A stretch of DNA of 28,721 bases, taken from assembly GCA_003118195.1 (NCBI GenBank), contig BEXV01004113.1:2243-30963 (forward strand), read 5' to 3'. Below the pieces are notes generated by a model. That model saw only the letters and a list, made by a program, of their open reading frames with translations, made no database searches and had not been told where the DNA came from. A program made the translations under genes and the position numbers. The stretch is from Hemicentrotus pulcherrimus. Its lineage: Eukaryota; Echinodermata; Echinoidea; Camarodonta; Strongylocentrotidae. This document shows positions 3,983-28,721 of the stretch, one piece after another. Every line of letters starts with the position of its first letter. The first letter of the stretch is position 1.

Positions 3983-4428
3983 CAAGGTCATTCACAAGGA
4001 CGCATGGAGTAGATGCACCACCAAAGGTTCAATGTGATGACGAGGTTATTCCCAAGGATACCGTCCATTTCCAGGTGATGTGTCCCACTCTGATTTTTGG
4101 CAGATGACAGGGACATTCACAAGGACGCATGTTTAGCTATGGAGTAGATGCACCACCAAAGGTTCAAAGCAGTGATGAGGTCATTCACAAGGTCACCATC
4201 GATTTCCAGGTGATGTGTCCCACTCTGATTTCCAGCAGATGACAAGGTCATTCACAAGAATGTATGTTTAGCTACTGAGTAGATGCACCGTCAAAGGTTC
4301 CAAGAGGTGACAATGTCATTTACAAGGATACCGCCAATTTCCCAGGTGCTGTGTCCCACTATGATTTCCAGCAGATGACAGGGTCATTCACAAGAAGAGA
4401 TGGTTAGCTACTGAGTAGATGCACCACA
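3976..4428 (+). repeat. Tandem repeat, about 135-bp unit, 3.4 copies, starting at the RWDD3 stop codon
   Basis: Units start with CAGATGACA at 3976, 4101, 4236 and 4372, giving spacings of 125, 135 and 136 bp. Each carries a block for 'cattcacaag', 'gagtagatgcacc', 'aaaggttc' and 'gtgtcccact'. The first copy lacks about 11 bp. The RWDD3 TGA is inside the first CAGATGACA, so the array fills the presumed 3' UTR. Confidence 0.88.
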
Positions 4429-4523
4429 AAAAAATGTTACCCTGTTTTTAAAGGAGGTTTTGAGTAATTTTATAGTATTGCTTTGTGAATGTTACTAGCT
4501 TATTGATCATATTGTAAACGGTG

Positions 4524-7444: not shown

Positions 7445-8255
7445 ATTGCAGTAAATAACACTCCTCGCCATACGTGTCTTTAATATGAAAAATAAGTATT
7501 TATAAATAATAAATAAATAGCATTTATTTAAAAAAAATGGCATCTGTAAATATTAACAATCAATATCTGAGATGAACAATACATTGCATCAATAAATGAA
7601 ATAGCAGTGAATAAGATACATTTTTAGATGGAAATATAGATTTAAATATTATAGATACAATCGTAATTGGCATCATCATCCATAAACATGTTATGGAAAT
7701 AGTACAACATGTAATTATTGCAGGAAATAACACTCCTCGCCATACGTGTCTTTAATATGAAAAATAAGTATTTATAAACAATAAATAAATAGCATTTATT
7801 TAAAAAAATGACATCTGTAAATATTAACAATCAATATCTGAGATGTACAATACATTGCATCAATAAATGAAATGGCAGTGAATAAGATACATTTTTCGAT
7901 GGGAATGTAGATTTAAATATTATAGATACAATCGTAATTGACATCATCATCCATAAACATGTTATGGAAATAATACAACATGTAATTATTGCAGGAAATA
8001 ACACTCCTCGCCATACGTGTCTTTAATATGAAAAATAAGTATTTATAAATAATAAATAAATAGCATTTATTTTAAAAAATGACATCTGTAAACATTAACA
8101 ATAAATATCTGAGATGTACAATACATTGCATCAATAAATGAAATGGCAGTGAATAAGATACATTTTTCGATGGAAATGTAGATTTAGATATTATAGATAC
8201 AATCGTAATTGACATCATCATCCATAAACATGTTATGGAAATAGTACAACATGAC
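7445..8255 (+). repeat. Tandem array, 271-bp unit, three copies
   Basis: ATTGCAG(G/T)AAATAACACTCC recurs at 7445, 7717 and 7988, giving spacings of 272 and 271 bp. Copies are highly alike, so the array is young. It is AT-rich and has no sustained open frame; the short frames shared between copies come from the repetition. Confidence 0.93.
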
Positions 8256-9776
8256 ATTATGGCACATGAATAATTCTCTACCACAAATGTAAGAAATGTA
8301 AAATTATGTATGATAATACTTTCTTTGACAAGAAAGGCAGGAAAATGAAACATTTTTCTGAAGCGTTAAAAGTCTACAAAATCCTGAACAAGCATAACCA
8401 AATAAATAGATATACACCTGTATATGAAATAGAAGAAACATCTCTCATAAACTATGTTTGTCAAATCAAAGCTACAACACCCCCTCCCCTTTGTAATATT
8501 TTGTTTCAGTTGAAATTGCCGACTGCATGCTAATTAGTTAGAATTGCAATTAAGTTACTTTGTTGGTTCTTCATAAACACACAAGCTTTAAATGATTTCT
8601 AGTTCAACTTTCCAATTGCAAAGACAAGTATAATACTTCAATTCTTTCTGATTAATTCTTGCTTAGCAAACTGCCCCTACAGCTGTATTTTCCTTCCGAA
8701 ATATGTATTTGTGTTTAATCAGACCGAACAATTCCATATGAAAGAAATCTTGTTTGAATTGTACTGTGGGTTTCGGGCTCGAGTGGTTTCAGGGTTAGTG
8801 ACAAAGTGTATTGCTTCCGGTTGGGGCTTTACGATTACTTCCTTCCTCCGGAAAGTCGGTTTGAAAGTTTTTAAGCTAAATTCTGTTTTTTGTTTTGTTT
8901 TGTTCTCATTTGGTTGTCAGGACAGATTATTTAGGACTACAAATCGTTCCGTTACCCCCAAACTCCCAAACCCCCACAATCGGATTAGTTTTTTGCTTCA
9001 GTATGGCACTCATCAATTACGTTAAATCTACATCGGGCTTATGCAAATAATTGCAAGAGGAGAAGATGAGGAGGAGGAGGAGTAGGAGGAGGGGGCTGAT
9101 GCCTCTTATCTGAATATGAATCATTCTGTTGTTATTTACCTAGTGATTAAAGCAAAGAAATATATAGATAATAAACTCGGTATGTTTATATTTCCCAGAA
9201 GTGTTTACGGCCTAACGCACTTCCATCCACATATCTGTCTAGACTATTTCTATCTTTCAATTCATTGAAAAGAAACTGTTTTTTAGATACTATGATGAAT
9301 TGGTTCAAAATGAGTGTTAAACACTCGAGGCAAATATATTGTACAATAAAGATTGATATTGACTTTGAAAAAGAAATAAATGTACACTGCATTTGGAACA
9401 CACAAAGTACGAATACTCAAGTGCAAGCCCAGCTCTAAGGTCTAAAAGGAAGCAGGAAAATGAGAGACAATTACAGAATGTCCAGAATTTGAGAGAAATC
9501 TTTAAAAAAAAAAAAAAGGCATCCCGATTCATTAATTTTGGAAAATACTTGTATCGTTTTGTGTGGAAGCTAACAGGAAAATTGTTTGACACCACATCGC
9601 TGCGACATGACCGACTCAGCTAAATTACAGTATCCATACCTGTAGTGATTATACCTTTTGAAGATTCATAACTTTGATATCTTATTATTTCTTCAAAACG
9701 TTAGCAAAGGTTGCTTTTCTCATTTTCTACTTTTTTTTAGAGCAATTATCTATTAATGTTGGATTTTCCGTAGATG
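8256..9776. other. No gene recognised; simple repeats only
   Basis: The region between the 271-bp array and the cytokine stop codon. An ATG frame on + at 8306-8533 (75 codons, lysine-rich start) cannot be linked to any family. A GGA-rich run at 9055-9097 is a simple repeat. The last part (below 9776) should hold the 3' UTR of the - strand cytokine gene, but no clear AATAAA signal on that strand was found. Confidence 0.5.
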
Positions 9777-9950
9777 CTATGAGCAAATGGATGTAGCTAT
9801 TCTGTCAACACTGTCAGTGGTGACAACAAAAGATTGAAGCCAAACCATCGACTCTTTGATGTTGTTTAGGACGGAACAGCCCCTCCCATTTTGATCGGAT
9901 CCTTGTTCGTATGTAACCGTTACCATGGCTCCAGAGGCAGGAAGATTACA
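9777..9950 (-). CDS. LIF-like cytokine exon 5 (helix D and stop)
   Basis: It follows the acceptor TTTTCTTGGTTACAG, phase 0, and encodes 57 residues and TAG at 9779-9777. It starts with Cys154-Asn-Leu-Pro, then MVTVTYEQGS, Gly-Cys178 and helix D (SVLNNIKESMVWLQSFV), with Cys209 next to the C-terminus. The VTY...GC.VL layout before helix D is the part closest to LIF. Confidence 0.78.
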   Translation of the reverse strand, partial: CNLPASGAMVTVTYEQGSDQNGRGCSVLNNIKESMVWLQSFVVTTDSVDRIATSICS

Positions 9951-12900
9951 CTGTAACCAAGAAAACCGTGAAAATGTTACTACAAATAAAGAGTCAGAAA
10001 TAGCACATGTACTAGTCGAGCCTGACTCTCATTATCTAAAACCTAAAATAAGTTAAATAAGGATGGGTTTCCAATCCCTATAAATAAGATTTGTGTATAA
10101 TATTGCAGTCCAAACAATCAGACTGGTTGCTATAATTCAAACGTTATAATTTGTGATTTTGCGAAAGGAGGTTTTTGATATCTCTATTCTTAGATCTGTA
10201 GGTAGCATATTCCCAAATTACTCCCAAGAAACGAAACAGAACATTTCCTTGTTCTGTTTTGAATAAAGGAAGACGAAATTTTCATGTTGCATCATACTGC
10301 AATAATGTTTTAAGGAATGAGGTAATCGTTCATTTATGAAATCAAACACAAAAGTACATATAGATAATTTGTGTAATTTGAAAACATTTAGCAATTGGGG
10401 GTCATGAAACGGTGCAATAGTATGGGTACGATGTGGCTTGAAAGTTGTAGCAATTGCAGCAATCTCTTGAGTATAAGATATACATATAAGATTTATATAT
10501 TAAGTTCTACCCCAAACCTCGATGCCATATGTAATATATGGCTGCCTTAGAGCCTTATACAACAGTATCAATATATATTTAGGTACATAGTGCCCTAATT
10601 TAAAGAGGATACCGAACTTTCTCCATATACAGTAATTAACAGATTTGTAATGTGAATTCCATGTTAAATGTCTGTCACTGCTAATGCCAGCAAATGTCGC
10701 TTCCTGTACTTGTTATCCATTATTAGTTGAATTGTAACTCACCTCGCAAGAGCTTAGTGTTGAATGAACTTTGTGTGACATCTGACTGAATCTGCTTTCT
10801 AGTGTAGTGTAGTTTTGCCTTCTGACTTCTTCCAAATTAGAACTGCTTTTAACAAGGCGCAGGACCGATTGATAGTATTGTATATGAACTAAAGTTTTAT
10901 TCAACTTATCAAGGGAGCTCACCTATGAAGAGGATCACACAAAAATAAGACAATTAGAAACAATAGTTAACCACCAAAGACCATTCGGAAAGTAATACTT
11001 TTCTATTCCTATTAAGGCTGGAAGATTAAGTTCTTAATTAGTAGGTTCATAGTACGGGCAAGCTTTCTCCAAGTTGCATGAAGGGGTATATTAAAACCAA
11101 GTAACAAAACGTAGAATATCACCCCTCATCCATAATAGAACACGAACCTCTGGCGAAATGAGTAGGAATTCTTATTACAAATAAATGCAAAGATGTATAC
11201 AAAATTGTTTAGCCGTTTTTTTTTTCATATCTGAATTGCGTAAAAAGAACGAATGAGCCTGTTTGCATTGAAAGTGAAGTTTTTTAAAAATTGCGTTTCC
11301 CTCCAGCTTAGGGGTGCCAAGGAGTCACATGAATAACCTTTAAAAAAAGTATAGTGTAACAAATAATATGACACTTTTCTGTACTTTTGTCGGAAAAAAC
11401 AGTAATCCAACACAATGTCGTCTCTTTTTGTGTTGGAGAAAAGCAAAAAAGCGGTTTTTAGGCCAGTCTCGCAAGCCTTCCCTCAATCAATATATACCTG
11501 TTTGTAGATACAATTTGCGCATGCGCGGATTGATCCGCGCATGCGCAGATAATGGACACTTGTATAAAATTGTAAAACCCACTGAGACTAATACTGGATA
11601 CATGCTCATGAAATGTATGTAATCATTATTCATGCATGCACCTGTACATGTGATGCATTCTGTTGAACACAGGTGGGACTGATCCTTTCCAGATGGCAAA
11701 CAAAGAATCACCTCCATGACTTTAGCTATGATTATTCCAAAAGGCACAAAGTGGGATGTATCTATGTTTAAAAGATCTGTGGATATTTGGGGTCATCTGT
11801 TCCAAGTGTTAACTACGAACTGGTCTATATTGTGGTTAGACGGCTTCGGGATACGCGGCAAATGAAAATACTAATCGTTAGCTTTATTCTGGTATTGTGC
11901 TTGTTTCTATTAGTTTAACTTAAAACCAGCACCTTAAGTTGGTGGCCGCACATGACGACACACCTCCAGTTTAAACACCGTTACGGCGTCTTTTCGAGGA
12001 ATACTACCAAGTACCAAGGTTGTACATTGTAAACAGTTTTCGGAATGACCCATTGACATAATGGAACTCCCTGCCTGATGAAGCCAGTGGCTCGATGGCA
12101 CTCAACACTGTGTAGGAGTTAGTTTGTGGTAAACTTCTTTAAAGGTACAAATCCAAGCAAACGTTTCCATATGTTTCTTATTTACAATGAAAACGCTTGC
12201 GGCCTTTGTTTCGATCAGCGAACTTCTAATAAAAATAGAACATCAAGAGGTGTGATTGAACTACTCCTTTTTTTTTCTTGGGGNGGGGTGGGTTTAAATC
12301 AATTTCAGATTTGGTTATCTTTCAACATTTTTAAAATAGACACTTACCGAGTCACTTGCACTTATGGCTGGTAGTACGAATGGCGTTGGGGAAATGCCAT
12401 AGTCTGAAATAAGACTACTACCTACAGAACAAGTCCAGTTACTCTGTGTAAAAAGAAACACAACAAAATATGATCTCAACATTCAAAATTCAAAATTCAT
12501 TGTCAGTATTAAATCAAGAAATGTTACATTCCATTGGTGTTATACATGCAATGTTAACATAGGTGTAAACATAATATCGTTAAATTTAAAACATATATTT
12601 CTTATTACCTATTTGGCGTCCCCAATGCTATATAGGTAGGGGAAAAGCGAACTATTATTGTGACACTCGGGTCTCTCCTCCCGGAATAACTGATTGGGGT
12701 TGTGCATGTGCATCTATTAAAACGGGGCCTCCATTTAACGTTCTATCCGAGGGACTAATTCTATTTCACTGTATATGAATCAGGGTAAAGACACATTAAA
12801 ACACAACGCATGCGACAGGCCTCACCACGCTTGCTATATTGAACACGTAAAGGCTTGATTGATTTATTCATTTATTTCTAAGCTGTCTTTCTATTTGAGG

Positions 12901-15900
12901 CAACCATTTTGTAAATATATTTCGCCCCTTTTAGTTCGTTCAACAGTATTAATAATATTAACAATACTAAAGATAAGAAGAGGTAGAAGAAGAAGAATTA
13001 CCAAAAGAATATTAGTCAAGCCGATGATATTTTGTACATCACGACTTAACTCGTAGGCCACTGGAGGGGGGCAAGCCTGTGACGACGCACTGAGTAGTTT
13101 TCTTGTTGGATGACATGATACTTTGATTCCCATGGCAACTAGGATCATTACCAGCAAATTAAGGATGCCTAAAACAGAAGGGGGAAAATATAATGGTATC
13201 ATAAAATGTATCAACGAGGGATGAAAACATCTCTAAGAAAACGGCATAGATGGAAACCCCTATTAAAAAAAAAGAAGTATTTATTGCTCTTAATTTGATT
13301 GTCCTCGGTAACAATGAATTTTCTTAAAAGGATTACCAAGGATTTCGAAAAAAATCAACCTAACCCTATTCCCCAACCTACGTTGGGTAAGAACAACAAT
13401 TGGAATTGACTGTAAGGAATGAATACTACGTTTATTAAATTCAAATTTTATAATAAAACTAACTAAATGATAAAGCACTTACATGTTATATTGGAACATA
13501 TTCATGTCATGGGATATTCAAAAGGATATTGATGTTGTCCTTGATTCATTTCTAGACAGTTTTTTAGATAATAATTTTAAGTTTATTGCTTCAGATCAGA
13601 GTACATAAAAGAGCAGTTGGTGAAGAACATTTACATCAATGTAAATAAAAACATAGTAATGAGTGGTACGTTATACAATTTAGCGTATAGACAAATTGCG
13701 AACATACCAGTGATAATCATATTACATTTTGTTTTGTTGGCCATATCATCAAATGTTTCAGCATTTTTCCTTGTCTTGTTGCATTATCCCTTTCCACTTG
13801 TTTCTAAATAAATAGTTTTCACCTTAATTTGTCTTCAATTATTTTCTATGCATTTATTTCGAAAGGGTTTACTATACATTACACAAGTGTTAATTATTTT
13901 GTTACTAATCTCGACTCTAAAAGATATGTCTGAGAGTGAAAATGGAAAACTAGATATTTTAATTTTACGGAGCCAATCACTGATACCTTTCCAGAATTTG
14001 TTTTAGAACAGGAAACGTATAGAACAAATACATTTACGTTTGCATACTTGTTTGACAAAAAAATGCATATTAGTGTACTTTTATACCAATACGGTACACA
14101 TTTTTATTAGCAGAAATCCTTCGATACAGGAATTTGAGCTAAAATGTTCTTAATCTTGACTGGTGGCTTTGTGTAACAATGCCACTTTTTGTAGAGCAGT
14201 GAATCCCTTGAAATATTTTTTTAAAACCAAATTTCTGCATGCTCATAAACAAGAAATTCCATTTAATGGCATCGAACGCCTTTTCGAAATCAATGGATAA
14301 AGCTAAGACGTTCAAACAATTTTGCCTTCAATGATGTATCATATCTCTGTATGTATGTATGTATTTACCAATATATCGACTTAAAAAAAAAAACAGTTTG
14401 GTCTCCATCTATAAATAATCGAAGAACCCTTTTTAGTCCGCTGTCTAGTCCGTGTTTAGGAGTGGTCGATCGCCATTTGTTTAACTCGAGGTATTTTTAT
14501 CTTCGGGGGAGAAGTGTATCCACTCTCTTACTATTTGTTTAACTCGAGGTATTTTTGTCTTCGGGGGAGAAGTGTATCCACTCTCTTACTCATCGACAAG
14601 CGGATTTTCCTTGTTGATAGCACGAGTTGAACAGTCTACAAAGAATCTTTTTCTAATAATTTATATCAACTGAAAATTCTTTGCAGAAATTAGCAAGTAG
14701 CCCATCTGTGCCAGGTGTGTTATCTAATGTTAAATCTTTGACTGCTTTATATCATTATTTTTCAGTTATGAACCCTTCGCAAAGAAAAGCAGATTCATTG
14801 TCTAATGGTGCCATTCCAGCACATTTAATAAATCAAGTCTTATCGTTTTCATATAGTTTCTAAAAAAACAAGTTTTCCTGATGCACGATTTAAGATGGTT
14901 CAACTATGAATGTGGCATCTTCTTCGACCTTCTGATTGTGTTTATTCTCGTAAATTTGTTTTTCTCAATTCAAAAAGTACCTCGAGTTCTTTTGCCCTTC
15001 AGCAATCCATGTGGCACGATTTTTAATCATAATTCCTCGAACAAAATCTTCTTGCATTTGGCATAGTTTTCTTTGATTACGTAACATCAAATCATTTACG
15101 AAGTTATCATTTGGATCTATATCAAAAGCATAGCGTAGCTTCTTAATGTTTTTTCTCCAAGGAATGTATTTTTATTATTTATTTATTTCTTAGCCTAGAG
15201 GAAATGAAAATGCATTTCTGATTTATTCTGTATTCAACAAACTCCCATAAAGTACATGTATTCATAGTTCAATAACTTTAAAACAAATTAAATTCCTTAT
15301 TTCTTCTTTTTCTACTTCATGAAAGAGTAGAGATGTATCTAGCTTACAGAAACCAGGTCCTCTCTTGAAAAAAAATATTTTTCACTACCAAACTTATAGC
15401 AGAGTGGTCACTACGATGACCAAAGTTTATGTTACAATGTTAAACATACTTTCTCAAATTATTCGATATAAGAAAATAGCAAATTCTCATGATTTCTGGC
15501 CACCGTTGGCCGCCATGTAAACTGTAACTTTGATGGGTTTTGTATACGCCAAATGTCAATTAAATCAAAGTCTTTTTGAAACAAATCAATTTCAGATAAT
15601 CATTTTGGATGGTATTGTACATGATTGGGGTATCTGGCAATCTTTGGATCTTGTACTGTATTTAGGTCGCCCCCCCCAAAAAAAAAAATATTAGGCTCTT
15701 CCTCATATTCTATTACAAAATTATGAAATTTCTAAATACATCTTCACTATCTGATCTGTGTTTGGACCATAGACAATTGCAACTGTAAAGGACAAGCAAC
15801 AAAAAACGACCCATATTTGGTCGGTGAGTAGAATGCACCTGTAAAATAAATGTGAATTTGGCTTGATTTATATTCACACTCCGGCACTGTCGGATTTCCC

Positions 15901-16235
15901 GTGAATAAATATGACCTGATTTACCTTTTCCGCTGACCATATCCCCTCAGAGTCTTTACAAATATGTGTTTCTTCAAGCAAACATCATACGGTTGTCTTC
16001 TTAGAAAATCAAAANCCAAGTCCCTTGTGTTTATTAAATAGAGTTTTATCTGAAAAGATTCACTCGTTATAATACTTTCCTTGAATGAAACATTTTCAAA
16101 TACATAATATCTAGTATATACCGGAAATCTTGAAGCGAAATAGTCAAGACAGTTAAACCGAATCACACACTGATGATGGCAATATGCAAATATATAAGAT
16201 TTTTTCAAAATTAACTTACAGTTTACTTGTTGCAT
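9777..16235 (-). CDS. LIF-type long-chain class I cytokine, complete five-exon gene
   Basis: Exons on the - strand are 16235-16220, 13168-13002, 12443-12348, 10922-10743 and 9950-9777; they total 633 nt, a 210-residue precursor. All introns are GT-AG with phases 1-0-0-0, the pattern of growth hormone and IL-6-type cytokine genes. Residues 1-23 or so form a signal peptide (LNLLVMILVAMG core). Helix A is in exon 2, the AB loop in exon 3, helices B and C in exon 4 and helix D in exon 5. Cysteines at 24, 38, 66, 152, 154 and 178 match the six disulfide cysteines of LIF in position; Cys209 is extra. VTY followed by a GC pair before helix D is also LIF-like. Sequons are at 63, 101 and 130. As a secreted ligand it would signal through a gp130/LIFR-like receptor and JAK/STAT (inference). 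It lacks the FxxK receptor motif of LIF. Exon 1 is the least certain part. Confidence 0.78.
10140..10705 (-). mobile_element. LINE reverse-transcriptase C-terminal fragment in cytokine intron 4
   Basis: On the - strand, broken frames read LTWNSHYKS, then KLGHYVPKYILILLYKAL, then YGIEVWGRT, then further to an HTIAPFHDP-like end. This is the C-terminal part of CR1/Jockey-type LINE proteins (LtW..Hi ... lY.al ... YgieVWg). Stops and a frame change show that it is dead. It begins only about 38 bp after the exon 4 donor. Confidence 0.8.
10743..10922 (-). CDS. LIF-like cytokine exon 4 (helices B and C)
   Basis: 180 nt, 60 codons, phase 0 at both ends; acceptor GATCCTCTTCATAG and consensus donor GAG|GTGAGT. 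Two amphipathic helices are seen: LDKLNKTLVHIQYYQSVLRL (B) and TTLESRFSQMSHKVHSTLSS (C), joined by a polar linker with the NYT sequon. It ends with Cys152, which together with Cys154 in the next exon recalls the paired cysteines after helix C of LIF. Confidence 0.8.
11516..11547. promoter_or_regulatory. Perfect 15-bp palindrome with two NRF1-type sites
   Basis: Arms TGCGCATGCGCGGAT and ATCCGCGCATGCGCA flank a 2-bp spacer in intron 3 of the cytokine gene. Each arm contains TGCGCATGCGC, the NRF1 (nuclear respiratory factor 1) consensus. It stands out as a CpG-rich block in AT-rich intron. A regulatory role is inferred, and a cruciform or transposon end is possible. Confidence 0.5.
12348..12443 (-). 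CDS. LIF-like cytokine exon 3 (AB loop)
   Basis: It is exactly 96 nt, 32 codons, open and phase 0 at both ends. The acceptor TTTCTTTTTACACAG and the donor GTAAGTG are both strong. It encodes SNWTCSVGSS, containing a sequon and Cys66 (the match of LIF Cys60), then a proline-rich loop (ISPTPFVLP). It is too short for ORF scans. Confidence 0.75.
13002..13168 (-). CDS. LIF-like cytokine exon 2 (signal peptide core and helix A)
   Basis: The acceptor is TTCTGTTTTAG after a C/T-rich tract; the donor TTG|GTAATT is weak but open and in phase 0. It encodes the rest of the signal peptide, Cys24, a basic linker, Cys38-Pro-Pro-Pro and helix A (AYELSRDVQNIIGLTNILL). In LIF, too, the second exon ends inside helix A. 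The frame stays open past the donor into a leucine-rich stretch, which would be intronic polypyrimidine. Confidence 0.75.
13830..16040 (-). mobile_element. L1/Tx1-type LINE, decayed, in cytokine intron 1
   Basis: Reading the - strand from about 16040: LINTRDL and FLRRQPYDV (start of the endonuclease), GRFLLL and IVYGPNT (15774-15751), a GGDLNT motif (~15664), DLIDIWR...NP, a SDHSA block and a KNRATWIAEGQKNSRYF linker. Then come reverse-transcriptase motifs NTPGTDG (~14710) and SIDFEKAFD (~14290) and a C-terminal FWKGISDWL. Many frameshifts and stops are present, and the catalytic YADD block is missing between 14250 and 14040. Same strand as the cytokine gene. Confidence 0.85.
14475..14590. 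repeat. 58-bp tandem duplication inside the intron 1 LINE
   Basis: The unit starting ATTTGTTTAACTCGAGG at 14475 recurs at 14533 with a single mismatch. It lies in reverse-transcriptase coding and adds to the damage there. Confidence 0.92.
16220..16235 (-). CDS. LIF-like cytokine exon 1 (start codon and first residues)
   Basis: ATG at 16235-16233 encodes MQQVN plus one base, then the donor GTAAGT. Exon 2 can only be read openly if entered at phase 1, and this exon supplies exactly that, giving MQQVNC and then a hydrophobic core. The ATG has A at -3. A very short first exon with a phase-1 intron inside the signal peptide is typical of LIF, oncostatin M and IL-6-type genes. An alternative first exon cannot be excluded because intron 1 is about 3 kb. 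Confidence 0.6.
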
Positions 16236-17208: not shown

Positions 17209-17560
17209 TCAGAAATTAATTTTATTCAAAGTAACTTTATCCTCTAAAATGAAATGTTGAACATCTGCAATTAACCTTATGAGTGGGCAATCCCATGATA
17301 AATGTTTTATAGATTCCTCGGAGCTATAACAAAATGAACATAAGTCTGACTGCGAAATATTTAATAATTTAAGATATTTCTTAACGCCAATTATACTATG
17401 TATTATGTTAAACTGAAAATAACGGATCCGTGTAGATAAATATGACCTGACAGGAACTAAGAAAGTTTTATCCCAGTCCATGTTTGGGATATTAATCAGA
17501 GAATCTTCTCAGAAATTGATTCAATGTGTTTTTCCCATGTGAGTTTGTTTTCAATGGCTA
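17209..17560 (-). mobile_element. LINE 3' fragment with zf-RVT domain
   Basis: The - strand frame from 17481 reads MDWDKTFLVPVRSYLSTRIR, an RYFQFNIIHSIIG stretch, then CSFCYSSEESIKHLSWDCP, the Cys-x2-Cys...His-x4-Cys zinc knuckle found after the reverse transcriptase of many animal LINEs. Upstream, GIAIENKLTWEKHIESISEK is also LINE-like. It is a separate insertion from the intron 1 copy. Confidence 0.82.
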
Positions 17561-18569: not shown

Positions 18570-20850
18570 TGTTACTACAACGAGGCAAGATGAAAGACAC
18601 TGGCATATCGATCCATGGAGATCTCGCCAAACACAACCAGCGTTTACTTTATGAAACGAGGAAACATAGCAAAGTTCTCAAGACGTGGACCCCAGATGTA
18701 CATGTCTGCACTCCTTCCTGCCACTAGTGGGAAGACAGTGAGTAATGTAATCAGAGACTTTGAGGGCTTAATTAACAACAATTTGATATTTATTTTTCAA
18801 TCAAAAATGAATTTGTTCCGACTCGTTTTAATGGTTAAATATCCATGCAGTAAATGTAATAAAGCAGTAAGGAAAAACCATAAGGCCCTTTTATGTACTT
18901 CTTGTACAAAATGGGCACATATAGTAGGAAGAAATTCCTAAATGCAAATACTATACCCTTTTCTAACTGCACTGATTTTCATCTGATGCATCCGGACGCA
19001 TCCGATGAAACGGCCAGTTAGAAAGCAACAGAGGAGAAAAAGGCGATTAAATAGCCGATGAAAAGAAGAGAAATAGGCGATTAAATTCTCCTGCTCAAGA
19101 GCAGGAGAAATTCTCAATCTATCGGTGTGACACCGATGAAACAGCCAGTTTGAAAGCGTTCGGGAGAAAAGGGCGATTAAAACAGCTATTAAAATGGTCA
19201 AAGGTCGCAGTATACGCGCGCTTTATCGTAACAAGCTGTGTTTGTTGACTTATGGTTGAACATGCTGCATGCTAGCTCTATGGAACGCGGGCTTACGCAA
19301 TAATTCTTCACTTCCGGCAAGTGCTCGCCACAGCGAGTGAATTTCACCGGCAATTAGAAAGCGACAGGGAGAAAACGGCGGTTTCACCTTTGTTTACATA
19401 AGGACAATTCAATCGGTATTTTCATCGGTGTGACTCCGATAGAAGCAGTTTGAAAGCGGTATCAGATGATATGAATGAATCTCTTGAAAATTGGCAATGT
19501 GCTGTTATAGTATGTACTCTGAAACAGTTTCCCTTTTGGGAACGAGAAGATATCTTTCCAGTAGAAACTCGTCTTGGATGTTCTCATCTTCCGAATATTA
19601 CACAAGATTCTACTTCGATTGAAGATAATAGATACAATATATATTGTGATTTTCCAAAGAAAAAGGGCATTAAATTAGCACATCAGAAGTTTAAGAAATA
19701 AATTTACAGATGTAACACAATTTCTTACAATTTCCAAAACATGGTTGAATGAGGACTTTTTTAATCATATAATTCATATCGATGTTTACAGAATTGAAAG
19801 AAATGGCAGGGATGCCATTGGTGGTGGTGGAGTACGAGGTTACTTTAATGAGAAATCTAACTTCTTAATAGCAATAATAATACACAACATTTATTACGCG
19901 CTTATAAATACGGGTGTCTCTAAGCACACTATTGTCTGACTAAACATTATTAACCAAAAGTAATAATAAACACACATTATAAATCTGTTAGTTAAGCAGA
20001 TCTTGAAACAATGAACTCATGAACTCATTTGGCCAGAAATCAAAAGGACAAGTAGTAGTTTGATTTGTGTTGGTATTTATACAGGAAACCTACCTGCCTA
20101 GGTATATTTTTACCACACTTGAAGGGAATATTGAGAAAGTAATATAATTGTCAAATAATATCGTTTTGCTGGGTGATTTCAACTGTAATATGAGAAATGA
20201 TAACACTTTGTCTACACACATTAAGGATATATTTGGTATTTTTCGTCAGCTTAATCAGTTAATAAACGAGCCTACACGAGTTACACCTCATAGTAGTACA
20301 ACCATTGATTCAATACTTACGTCGAACTCTATTGCTTACTTGGAGTCCGGTGCAATGTCCATTGATTTTAGTGACCTCTGTTTGATATTCTAGTACTGAC
20401 CTCGGTTTAATATTCTAGTCGTACAAGGCAAAGACCCAGTGCTTCATTCGAAAATATGTAAATTTAGATCTTTCGGAACTTTAACGAAAGCGAATGTCAA
20501 GAGGACTTGAAAAATCAAAATTGGATTGACTTTAATGAAGAAAATGTTGAAGTTGATAAAATGTGGTCTCATATCAAATTCATGTTCACTATATTCAGTG
20601 ATAAACATGCACCTTTTATTTCTGTCAGAAGAAAACGAAATGGGGTGCCTTGGATTAGAGATGAATAAATTACTTTGGCAATTGACCGTAATTACTATAA
20701 GAAAAGGTATAAAAAGACGAAGTGTAATTGTCGGAGACATTATCGGAAAGAGCAAGTACCAATGCAAATTTTTAATTATGCGCAATGATAACCTCAATAA
20801 AAATATATCATTAGTGGACGTGACATTAGCTTGATGTTGAATGTAGATTC
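18570..20850 (+). mobile_element. CR1/Jockey-type LINE (ORF1 end, PHD finger, endonuclease), split by an insertion
   Basis: In order on +: an ORF1-like C-terminus (KMKDTGISIHGDLAKHNQRL, then LKTWTPD); a PHD-like finger YPCSKCNKAVRKNHKALLC at 18835-18935, broken by a 0.5-kb insert; WQCAVIVCTLKQFPFW at about 19480, the far side of the finger; an endonuclease with TWLNEDF (~19735), GGGGVRGYF, NNIVLLGDFNCNM (20150) and NEPTRVTPHSSTTIDSILT; and then a linker with MWSHIKF...DKHAPF and VPWIRDE. The reverse transcriptase is absent, and several frame changes show decay. Confidence 0.85.
18950..19463 (+). mobile_element. Miniature element inserted in the PHD finger of the LINE
   Basis: About 510 bp with ends CTTTTCTAACTGC (left) and GCAGTTTGAAAGC (right), which are imperfect inverted repeats. 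The motif CAGTT(A/T)GAAAGC also occurs inside, near 19012 and 19144, with a variant near 19350, usually followed by GGAGAAAA.GGCGATT. It separates the first cysteine pairs of the LINE zinc finger from WxCxxC. No transposase. A clean target-site duplication was not seen. Confidence 0.65.
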
Positions 20851-25237: not shown

Positions 25238-25239
25238 CC

Positions 25240-25515
25240 TGCCGCATACTCCTGCGGCAGACTTGCCGCAGATCTGCCGCAGACCTGCCGCAGACAGTCT
25301 GCTTTTTCACATGCAAATGAGCGCTGCGGCAGACTTGCCGCAGCCCTGCCGCATACTCTTTCAGTACAATGAAAAGTCTGCGGCAGATCTGCGGCAGACT
25401 TGCCGCAGCCCTGCCGCATACTCTTTTAGTACAATGAAAAGTCTGCCGCAGACCTGCCGCATACTCTTTTAATACAATGAAAAGTCTGCGGCAGATCTGC
25501 GGCAGCCCTGCCGCA
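25240..25515. repeat. Array of 17 TGC(C/G)GCA motifs with 11-bp spacing
   Basis: Motif starts are 25240, 25253, 25264, 25275, 25286, 25325, 25336, 25347, 25379, 25390, 25401, 25412, 25444, 25455, 25487, 25498 and 25509. Within clusters the step is 11 bp almost without exception; clusters are set 32-39 bp apart. Three of the gaps hold the same spacer (TACTCTTT.A.TACAATGA). Each motif is symmetric, usually as CTGC(C/G)GCAG. The open frames on both strands are by-products. Confidence 0.92.
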
Positions 25516-27290: not shown

Positions 27291-28668
27291 CTATAAAGAA
27301 AATGAAAACAAAAATACCAATAAATTATCCACAACCATTATAATTGCTTTGAAACAAAGTTACAGCATTCACTGCATTTTAAACAAGGTGCTTGGCATGT
27401 TAGAAAGAAAACATTGGAGATTTAACACATTCCATCTACTTTTAATCAATTAATATTGAAAAATAAAGATGGAGGTCATGCAGGAAAATAGTTAACCTTG
27501 CCCAGCATAGGATATCGCTCGAACTTAAATTAGATTAGATCCTTTGTTTTGACAAAATTAGCAGGAAAGTTATGTAAACAGGAGGATCAATGACTTTGCA
27601 TTCAGAAGAGGCAGCTATCACAGTTTGTGCTTTGTTTGACAAGCTTTCCAGTGGTCAAGAAAAATACTTTGTGTGGTTCTATGCCTAGGATGAAAGGAAA
27701 GAGAGAATCATGTGTCAATTGAAATGTCCAACAATTGCTCTGGCACCGAATGCTAACGTTGAACCTAACACCAAAACTCTAATCCTTGCTTTGCCCTGAA
27801 CCAACCCAATTAAAACTCTTTCTTTGGAGAGGTACCAATACTGGAGCATATGTCGGATAACCGTCAATTGAAGAAAAAATACAAAAATTCATATACAATA
27901 GATGGAGGTGTCATTATCATTAGAAAAAAATGAGCCATCCATGTAATTAGGCCTTTACAAATACGGTTCCTAACCCAATCTGATTTCACTAATTTCTGTT
28001 AAAACTTCTGAAAAATATATCACATGAGTCAGAGAAGATCAAATACCTTTTCAAACTATAATGAAGTTTCATTAACTAAAGATACTGGGTCAGAGACTAC
28101 TGCAAGGCTGAATTGGGCATAAGTGTACTTGGTAATGTATTGGAAATCATCTTTGAAAATTTCTACCAGAAACCAACATATAATAGCTGAGATATGAATG
28201 AAAATATGAACATTAGAATTAAAAAGAAAGTAATCTTGAATTTTCATGCTTAAGCAGAAAATTATAGATACCAACGCCCGATTTTTTTCTCCAATTTTGT
28301 ATATTGCCGCTTGAGTCATGTGTATAACTGTTTGTAATGTTTTTAGATTATAACATAGGACTTCTGCATTTTGAGTCACGCAATGTTCCCTAGTAGTACA
28401 TTTAACTTGACAATAATTCAGCATTTGAACACTTACGTCTCAATCCCTCCATGATATCAGGGAATCGCTGCTTTAGTGTAGCTGCAGTCACGTCCGCCAG
28501 CTCCATGGGCTGGAAGAAGCCATCCATGATCTTTTTGAATGTGTACGAAGGCTCCTTCCCCCGGCATTTAGATAGTACCTCTCCGAGCCAAGACCTCCGT
28601 ACCGCCAAATTCGAAGACTCTAATCGTTCGTAAAGGTTGGGGGCTTCCTCCCCATCCTTCAAAATAAC
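27181..28668 (-). CDS. BEN-like protein, last two coding exons (5' part outside window)
   Basis: Exons 28668-28437 and 27290-27181 on the - strand join in matching phase (1) through a GT-AG intron of 1146 bp and end at TAG 27183-27181. They encode about 113 residues. The piece runs LYERLESSNLAVRRSWLGEV, then FKKIMDGFFQPMELADVT, then a helix with RFPDIMEGL, and ends in a basic helix (VNNKLCTARRTVKKRE). An F-x2-x-ELA motif after a leucine-type helix, and a final helix with Arg pairs, recall the BEN domain, a DNA- and protein-binding fold of chromatin regulators. The match is by pattern only, so the family is uncertain; that these are real exons is better supported. Confidence 0.6.
27291..28436 (-). 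other. Intron of the BEN-like gene
   Basis: It is bounded by the donor at 28436 and the acceptor at 27291. An open - strand frame at 28056-28424 has no motif and is read as chance. Confidence 0.55.
28437..28668 (-). CDS. BEN-like gene, penultimate exon
   Basis: The acceptor is TGCCTTGTCTTCCAG and the donor is AGAC|GTAAGTG. Phase 0 in, phase 1 out. It is open over all 232 nt and starts VILKDGEEAPN. Confidence 0.75.
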
Positions 28669-28721
28669 CTGGAAGACAAGGCAGTTAAATATTAGGTTAC
28701 ACTTTTAACATTGAGAGGCAA

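Follow-up and report, generated by a model that had tools for sequence, protein, structure and literature searches.

A sea urchin gene of probably five exons with a candidate LIF-like helical cytokine as its product

In the accessible text of a 2026 survey, IL-6-family cytokines are described as restricted to vertebrates and the receptor IL6R is traced back to molluscs, with the IL6R of the purple sea urchin, Strongylocentrotus purpuratus, present in its tree (PMC13203501). The available portion of another study reports type-I helical cytokines in amphioxus, with none found in acorn worms or sea squirts; it gives the origin of the superfamily as undetermined (PMC9010856). Here we describe a gene on the minus strand of a 28,721-nt stretch of the sea urchin Hemicentrotus pulcherrimus (assembly GCA_003118195.1, contig BEXV01004113.1, positions 2,243 to 30,963), which we call the window and to which all positions below refer. 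Its product is likely to be a secreted long-chain class I helical cytokine of an echinoderm, LIF-like in character, as analogy of gene plan and the sequence itself both suggest.

The closest described invertebrate systems can be likened to this gene by description only. Amphioxus has a growth-hormone-like protein of 208 residues, also an invertebrate type-I helical cytokine and from a chordate, as set out in the available part of PMC9010856. Insects have the Unpaired proteins (Upd1/2/3), ligands of Domeless and likewise invertebrate JAK-STAT ligands, in the accessible text of PMC13203501; Upd3 is called IL6-like in the excerpts at hand of PMC8226699. JAK-STAT ligands as such are therefore not new in invertebrates. 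An earlier claim for echinoderms, that the sea star Asterias forbesi has an IL-6-like molecule (Beck and Habicht 1996), is cited in the same excerpts (PMC8226699), and a further report sees no apparent system of cytokine receptor signalling in the purple sea urchin (PMC3296744).

The gene model and its purple sea urchin counterpart

Splicing in silico joined 633 nt from five minus-strand exons of 16, 167, 96, 180 and 174 nt into a frame of 210 residues and a stop codon, in agreement with the GT-AG borders, compatible phases and product length proposed by a first-pass annotation made from the letters of the window. All four introns run from GT to AG, with phases 1-0-0-0. Their donors score 7, 6, 7 and 8 of 9, and pyrimidines occupy 14, 11, 10 and 10 of 15 positions in their acceptors. 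Exon 1 (16220..16235) would supply the start of the signal peptide, MQQVN plus one nucleotide, before a GT donor in phase 1. Exon 2 (13002..13168) encodes the remainder of the signal peptide, C24, C38 and predicted helix A; residues 7-24, judged by hydropathy to be the hydrophobic core of the predicted signal peptide together with its end, lie at 13113..13166. Exon 3 (12348..12443) holds the AB loop, C66 and the sequon N63, and exon 4 (10743..10922) holds predicted helices B and C, the sequons N101 and N130, and C152. Exon 5 (9777..9950) carries C154, a CD loop with the segment VTVTY...GCSVL, C178, predicted helix D, C209 and the stop codon. Exons 2 to 5 were delimited by their splice joins, and the placing of loop and helices in exons 3 and 4 comes from low-confidence models.

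A protein search found an uncharacterized S. purpuratus protein, LOC105445198 (P0001), identical to window residues 7-210, the product of exons 2-5, at 188 of 204 positions (92%) without a gap. Identical residues number 50 of 55, 31 of 32, 56 of 60 and 51 of 57 in exons 2, 3, 4 and 5, leaving 5, 1, 4 and 6 differences. Because the alignment is gapless, the joins of exons 2-5 are continuous in the second gene model too, which is known from its protein alone. By this comparison, exons 2-5 form a real gene that has been conserved in S. purpuratus, and the same identity supports the suggestion that the genome is an invertebrate one. We did not find LOC105445198 named in any paper of the open-licence literature. 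That the model is an artefact, or the gene a decaying one, seems to us hardly credible: the weak exon 1 and the retroelement fragments around the gene speak for it, but frames and splice sites are intact across the whole of that gapless match in a second species. When the S. purpuratus protein was used as query, exon by exon with the best candidates scored, the 414-Mb genome (4189 contigs) yielded four places, the window's own exons 2-5, and no second copy. As far as found, the gene is single copy.

The proposal of a complete five-exon gene holds for exons 2-5 and is provisional for exon 1, which is one of seven mini-exons inside 12 kb that carry an ATG, end in phase 1 and have a donor scoring 7/9 or better. 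An alternative, unspliced start exists in the window at ATG 13202-13200, in frame with exon 2. Both the NCBI model of LOC105445198, whose N-terminus differs from ours and comes from the bases immediately 5′ of the exon 2 acceptor, and a Logan protein, P0002, read directly upstream of exon 2. In a by-eye comparison, the window, LOC105445198 and P0002 are in three different frames 5′ of the TTTTAG acceptor and in the same frame 3′ of it. Since the frames differ upstream only, the acceptor at 13169 and a phase-1 intron within the signal peptide would stand whichever first exon is right; we infer that this acceptor, and hence phase 1, is better supported than exon 1 itself.

The exon 2 frame also stays open for 36 codons into intron 2 (12891-13001, minus strand), through a hydrophobic stretch and then charged residues. 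P0002 is likewise a read-through fragment into this intron, identical to the window at 22 of 28 residues, and was excluded from the alignments. A membrane-anchored or truncated isoform from such read-through is conceivable; plain noncoding conservation is likelier.

Gene plan and protein features

The strongest hint to the kind of protein is its gene plan. A tiny first coding exon (provisional) is followed by a phase-1 intron within the signal peptide and then by phase-0 introns. Exon 3, of 96 nt and 32 residues, stands between phase-0 introns and between predicted helices A and B, with helix A at the end of exon 2, B and C in exon 4, and D in exon 5 (helix limits from a low-confidence model). 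The human erythropoietin (EPO) gene is alike in having five exons, with an exon 3 (nt 160-246; 87 nt, 29 residues) that contains the AB loop; in the EPO bundle the AB and CD loops are long and the BC loop is short (PMC5473850). Given those limits, the junctions on both sides of EPO exon 3 are phase 0. An AB loop in its own exon between phase-0 introns, a trait of long-chain class I helical cytokines, is thus found in the urchin gene as in EPO. Coding exon lengths are 13/146/87/180/156 nt in EPO, 19/191/114/147/168 nt in IL-6, 10/161/120/165/198 nt in growth hormone (GH) and 19/179/411 nt in LIF. The introns of EPO, IL-6 and GH and the two of LIF have the phases of the model here, with its provisional exon 1, and EPO exon 4, at 180 nt, equals exon 4 of the urchin gene in length. 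The exon 2/3 junction aligns at LIF residue 63, and LIF's own junction follows residue 66. The likeness to EPO does not extend to sequence (z-score, z, of -0.5 to -0.3).

The gene plan also bears on whether the product could be a class II helical cytokine of the interferon/IL-10 type, which we consider very improbable. Such proteins are also secreted, helical and shorter than 200 residues, and single-pair global z-scores of the urchin protein reach 1.6-2.4 with IFNA2 and 1.1-2.7 with IL10. Against the LIF set, however, IFNA2 and IL10 score only 0.4 to 1.1, unlike the urchin protein. Type I interferon genes of teleosts and amphibians have four introns, all of phase 0, in the accessible part of PMC4929537, whereas the first intron here is phase 1.

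Several features of the protein bear on secretion and on likeness to LIF. Hydropathy marks residues 7-20 at the N-terminus as hydrophobic (exon 1 being uncertain), and by the -3/-1 rule for signal peptide cleavage the signal peptide would be removed after G19 or C24. Three sequons, N63, N101 and N130, were found, the number given by the annotation. Its claim of six cysteines at the positions of the LIF disulfides stood in part. The precursor has eight (6, 24, 38, 66, 152, 154, 178 and 209), C6 and C209 having been overlooked, and C24 may be lost along with the signal peptide. In an unguided alignment of the S. purpuratus protein with 13 LIFs, C38 falls on LIF C40 (13/13), C154 on C153 (13/13) and C178 on C185 (12/13), while C66 and C152 lie off the LIF cysteine columns, so that three of the six LIF cysteines are in register. 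C66 is in the AB loop, but not in the column of LIF C82. The LIF disulfides in question are C40-C153 and C82-C185, with C82 in the AB loop. Relative to LIF the urchin protein has the additional cysteines C152, C209 and perhaps C24. The VTVTY...GCSVL segment of exon 5 is akin to V.V.Y...GC.LL in the LIF alignment and the length is similar to that of LIF, both being resemblances that the annotation had also pointed out. In low-confidence AlphaFold2 models, helices are predicted at about residues 40-62, 97-119, 131-155 and 179-208.

Similarity to LIF

We compared the window protein with a panel of 17 proteins. Human LIF gave z-scores of 4.3 to 5.1 and ranked first of the 17 in all four scoring settings; such single-pair p-values carry selection, because the first-pass annotation had picked LIF from the same sequence. 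Averaged over 15 LIFs, z was 5.4 (local) and 5.9 (global), a score reached by none of 300 residue shuffles. With block shuffles 1 of 400 reached the score in each mode, and the reversed sequence did not. None of 106 rotations reached it, by a small margin (best 48.5 versus 50.5 local, 37.1 versus 37.8 global). In a calibration over 14 LIFs, local/global z was 4.4/5.9 for the window protein and 3.5/4.8 for the S. purpuratus protein, compared with 18.4/16.8 for OSM and 6.8/8.8 for CNTF; the other 14 panel proteins ranged from -0.7 to 1.5, except apoE with a local z of 3.5 (global 0.8). Block shuffles over seven LIFs gave 4.8/5.9 for the window protein and local values of 3.0 for apoE, 2.7 for GH and 1.8 for IL-11. 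Similarity to LIF therefore lies above matched nulls, and is weaker with cysteines masked, with the LIF chimera 1a7m, with some LIFs and with a semiglobal position-specific scoring matrix (PSSM). From these comparisons the resemblance to LIF appears real but faint. For the alignments, 103 of 117 LIF-search matches were left out of the LIF alignment A3, and row P0072 is in A3 and not in A4.

Several results weigh against a LIF-like cytokine, in addition to the receptor searches given below. The letters of human LIF were confirmed, and 14 of the 17 panel sequences entered as provisional letters. The 1a7m chimera gave z-scores of only 2.2 and 3.3, 14 LIFs taken singly ranged from 0.4 to 5.2, and a PSSM of 14 LIFs gave 2.8 locally and only 1.3 in semiglobal mode. 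Masking the cysteines lowered z to 2.4 and 3.1 (reached by 9 and 2 of 300 shuffles); roughly half of the signal against LIF comes from these residues. Locally, the S. purpuratus protein scores no higher than apoE. Neither the window protein nor P0001 matched a Pfam family at E up to 10 (human LIF, as control, scored 213.5 bits), NCBIfam gave no match for P0001, and PDB sequence searches returned one chance match at E 1.3 with the single protein and none with a two-row profile. Comparison with the LIF alignment by hhalign gave a probability of 5%, on the wrong helix and out of register, and this alignment was rejected as support for LIF. Single-sequence AlphaFold2 of P0001 reached a mean confidence (pLDDT) of 40.7, and 54.9 when 13 LIF rows were supplied, with helix D below 40. 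P0001 and P0002 were the only proteins returned by two proteome searches restricted to sequences with short words in common, and the gene is known here from genomic DNA and protein comparison alone.

Foldseek with the single-sequence P0001 model gave nothing better than E 4.4. With the model built on LIF rows, Foldseek and VIA returned unrelated helical chains with LIF, IL-11 and G-CSF among them, and LemA first by VIA; the LIF, IL-11 and G-CSF matches were left uncounted because the model's input rows were LIF. The expected LIF-type bundle was not recovered with confidence, and the four-helix cytokine that had been proposed draws indirect support from the gene plan and from the predicted helix order in a low-confidence model.

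One explanation for such results is a secreted helical protein peculiar to the lineage of strongylocentrotid urchins and without cytokine kinship, its likeness to LIF having arisen by convergence of amphipathic helices and cysteines. The lack of any family match, the finding of just P0001 and P0002 in the proteome searches, the cysteine share of the signal and the local z of apoE, an unrelated bundle, all fit this explanation. It does not readily account for the 1-0-0-0 phases with junctions aligned to predicted helices and loop, for a global z of 5.9 against LIF where panel proteins outside the LIF subfamily have at most 1.5, or for three cysteines in LIF register, and we regard it as unlikely.

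A LIF-like class I cytokine might, more narrowly, be a true orthologue of a LIF/OSM subfamily that had parted from IL-6, EPO and GH before there were chordates. This is doubtful, if a little less so than convergence is unlikely. The first rank of LIF in every setting, z-scores not far under those of CNTF, an accepted LIF relative, the cysteine register and the exon 5 segment argue for it. On the other side, the LIF/OSM profile found no match (PF01291, E up to 10) and hhalign was no more favourable; C66 and C152 are off register, C152 and C209 are extra, and there are five coding exons compared with three in LIF. Because the profile test failed, we do not file the protein as a LIF/OSM member. 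Of the LIF type as first proposed, a sequence closer to LIF than chance remains, and the profile lends orthology no support.

Proposed action, receptor searches and surroundings

If the product is a LIF-like class I cytokine, its signal peptide would be cleaved after residue 19 or 24 and its four helices, whose limits come from the low-confidence models, would form an up-up-down-down bundle in which the AB and CD crossovers are long. C38-C154 would be the counterpart of the LIF disulfide from the N-terminus to the end of helix C, and a second bridge, C66-C178, would join helix D to the AB loop. The glycosylated protein would be secreted, bring together two gp130/IL6R-like receptor chains and signal via JAK-STAT. 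We suggest, tentatively and with the balance tilted against it, that a LIF-type class I helical cytokine was present in the deuterostome ancestor, that the five-exon echinoid gene keeps the LIF N-terminus-to-helix-C disulfide, that gp130-type signalling had its ligand arm before chordates, and that the protein is the missing partner of the orphan urchin IL6R. Should the product indeed be a LIF-like cytokine, cytokine genes of the vertebrate style would go back beyond the chordates. A sea urchin ligand with a vertebrate gene plan would be a candidate partner for an orphan receptor, and would allow the origin of this signalling to be tested in an embryo that is a laboratory classic.

The gp130/LIFR-like receptor sought in the same genome did not emerge: a search with the PF09067 profile found no credible class I receptor. 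Its one match, on contig C350 (locus L004, G000:C350:73390-73680), passed the cut-off narrowly and only when its neighbours in frame were included (27.3 bits), and 2 of 14 control genomes gave matches below the cut-off. The match has five stops inside, L004 shows no WSxWS motif in its plus frames, and the match was rejected as a receptor; it may be chance or a decayed receptor exon. STAT_bind gave no match in the genome, a null that is uninformative because the controls were silent too.

Rfam gave no match in the window. A 100-residue open frame at 28402-28704 (minus strand) looks exon-like by eye and has no Pfam or PDB match; within intron 4, 10218-10499 (minus strand) is retrotransposon-like by eye, also with no Pfam match. 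Retrotransposon fragments lie at 17209-17508 (minus strand) and 20148-20393 (plus strand), with a zf-RVT match (E 8e-7) and a sub-threshold endonuclease-reverse transcriptase match (E 6e-4). Tandem arrays occupy 4007-4431, 7445-8264, 25238-25504 and 14475-14590, with periods of 135, 271, 11-65 and 58 bases, respectively.

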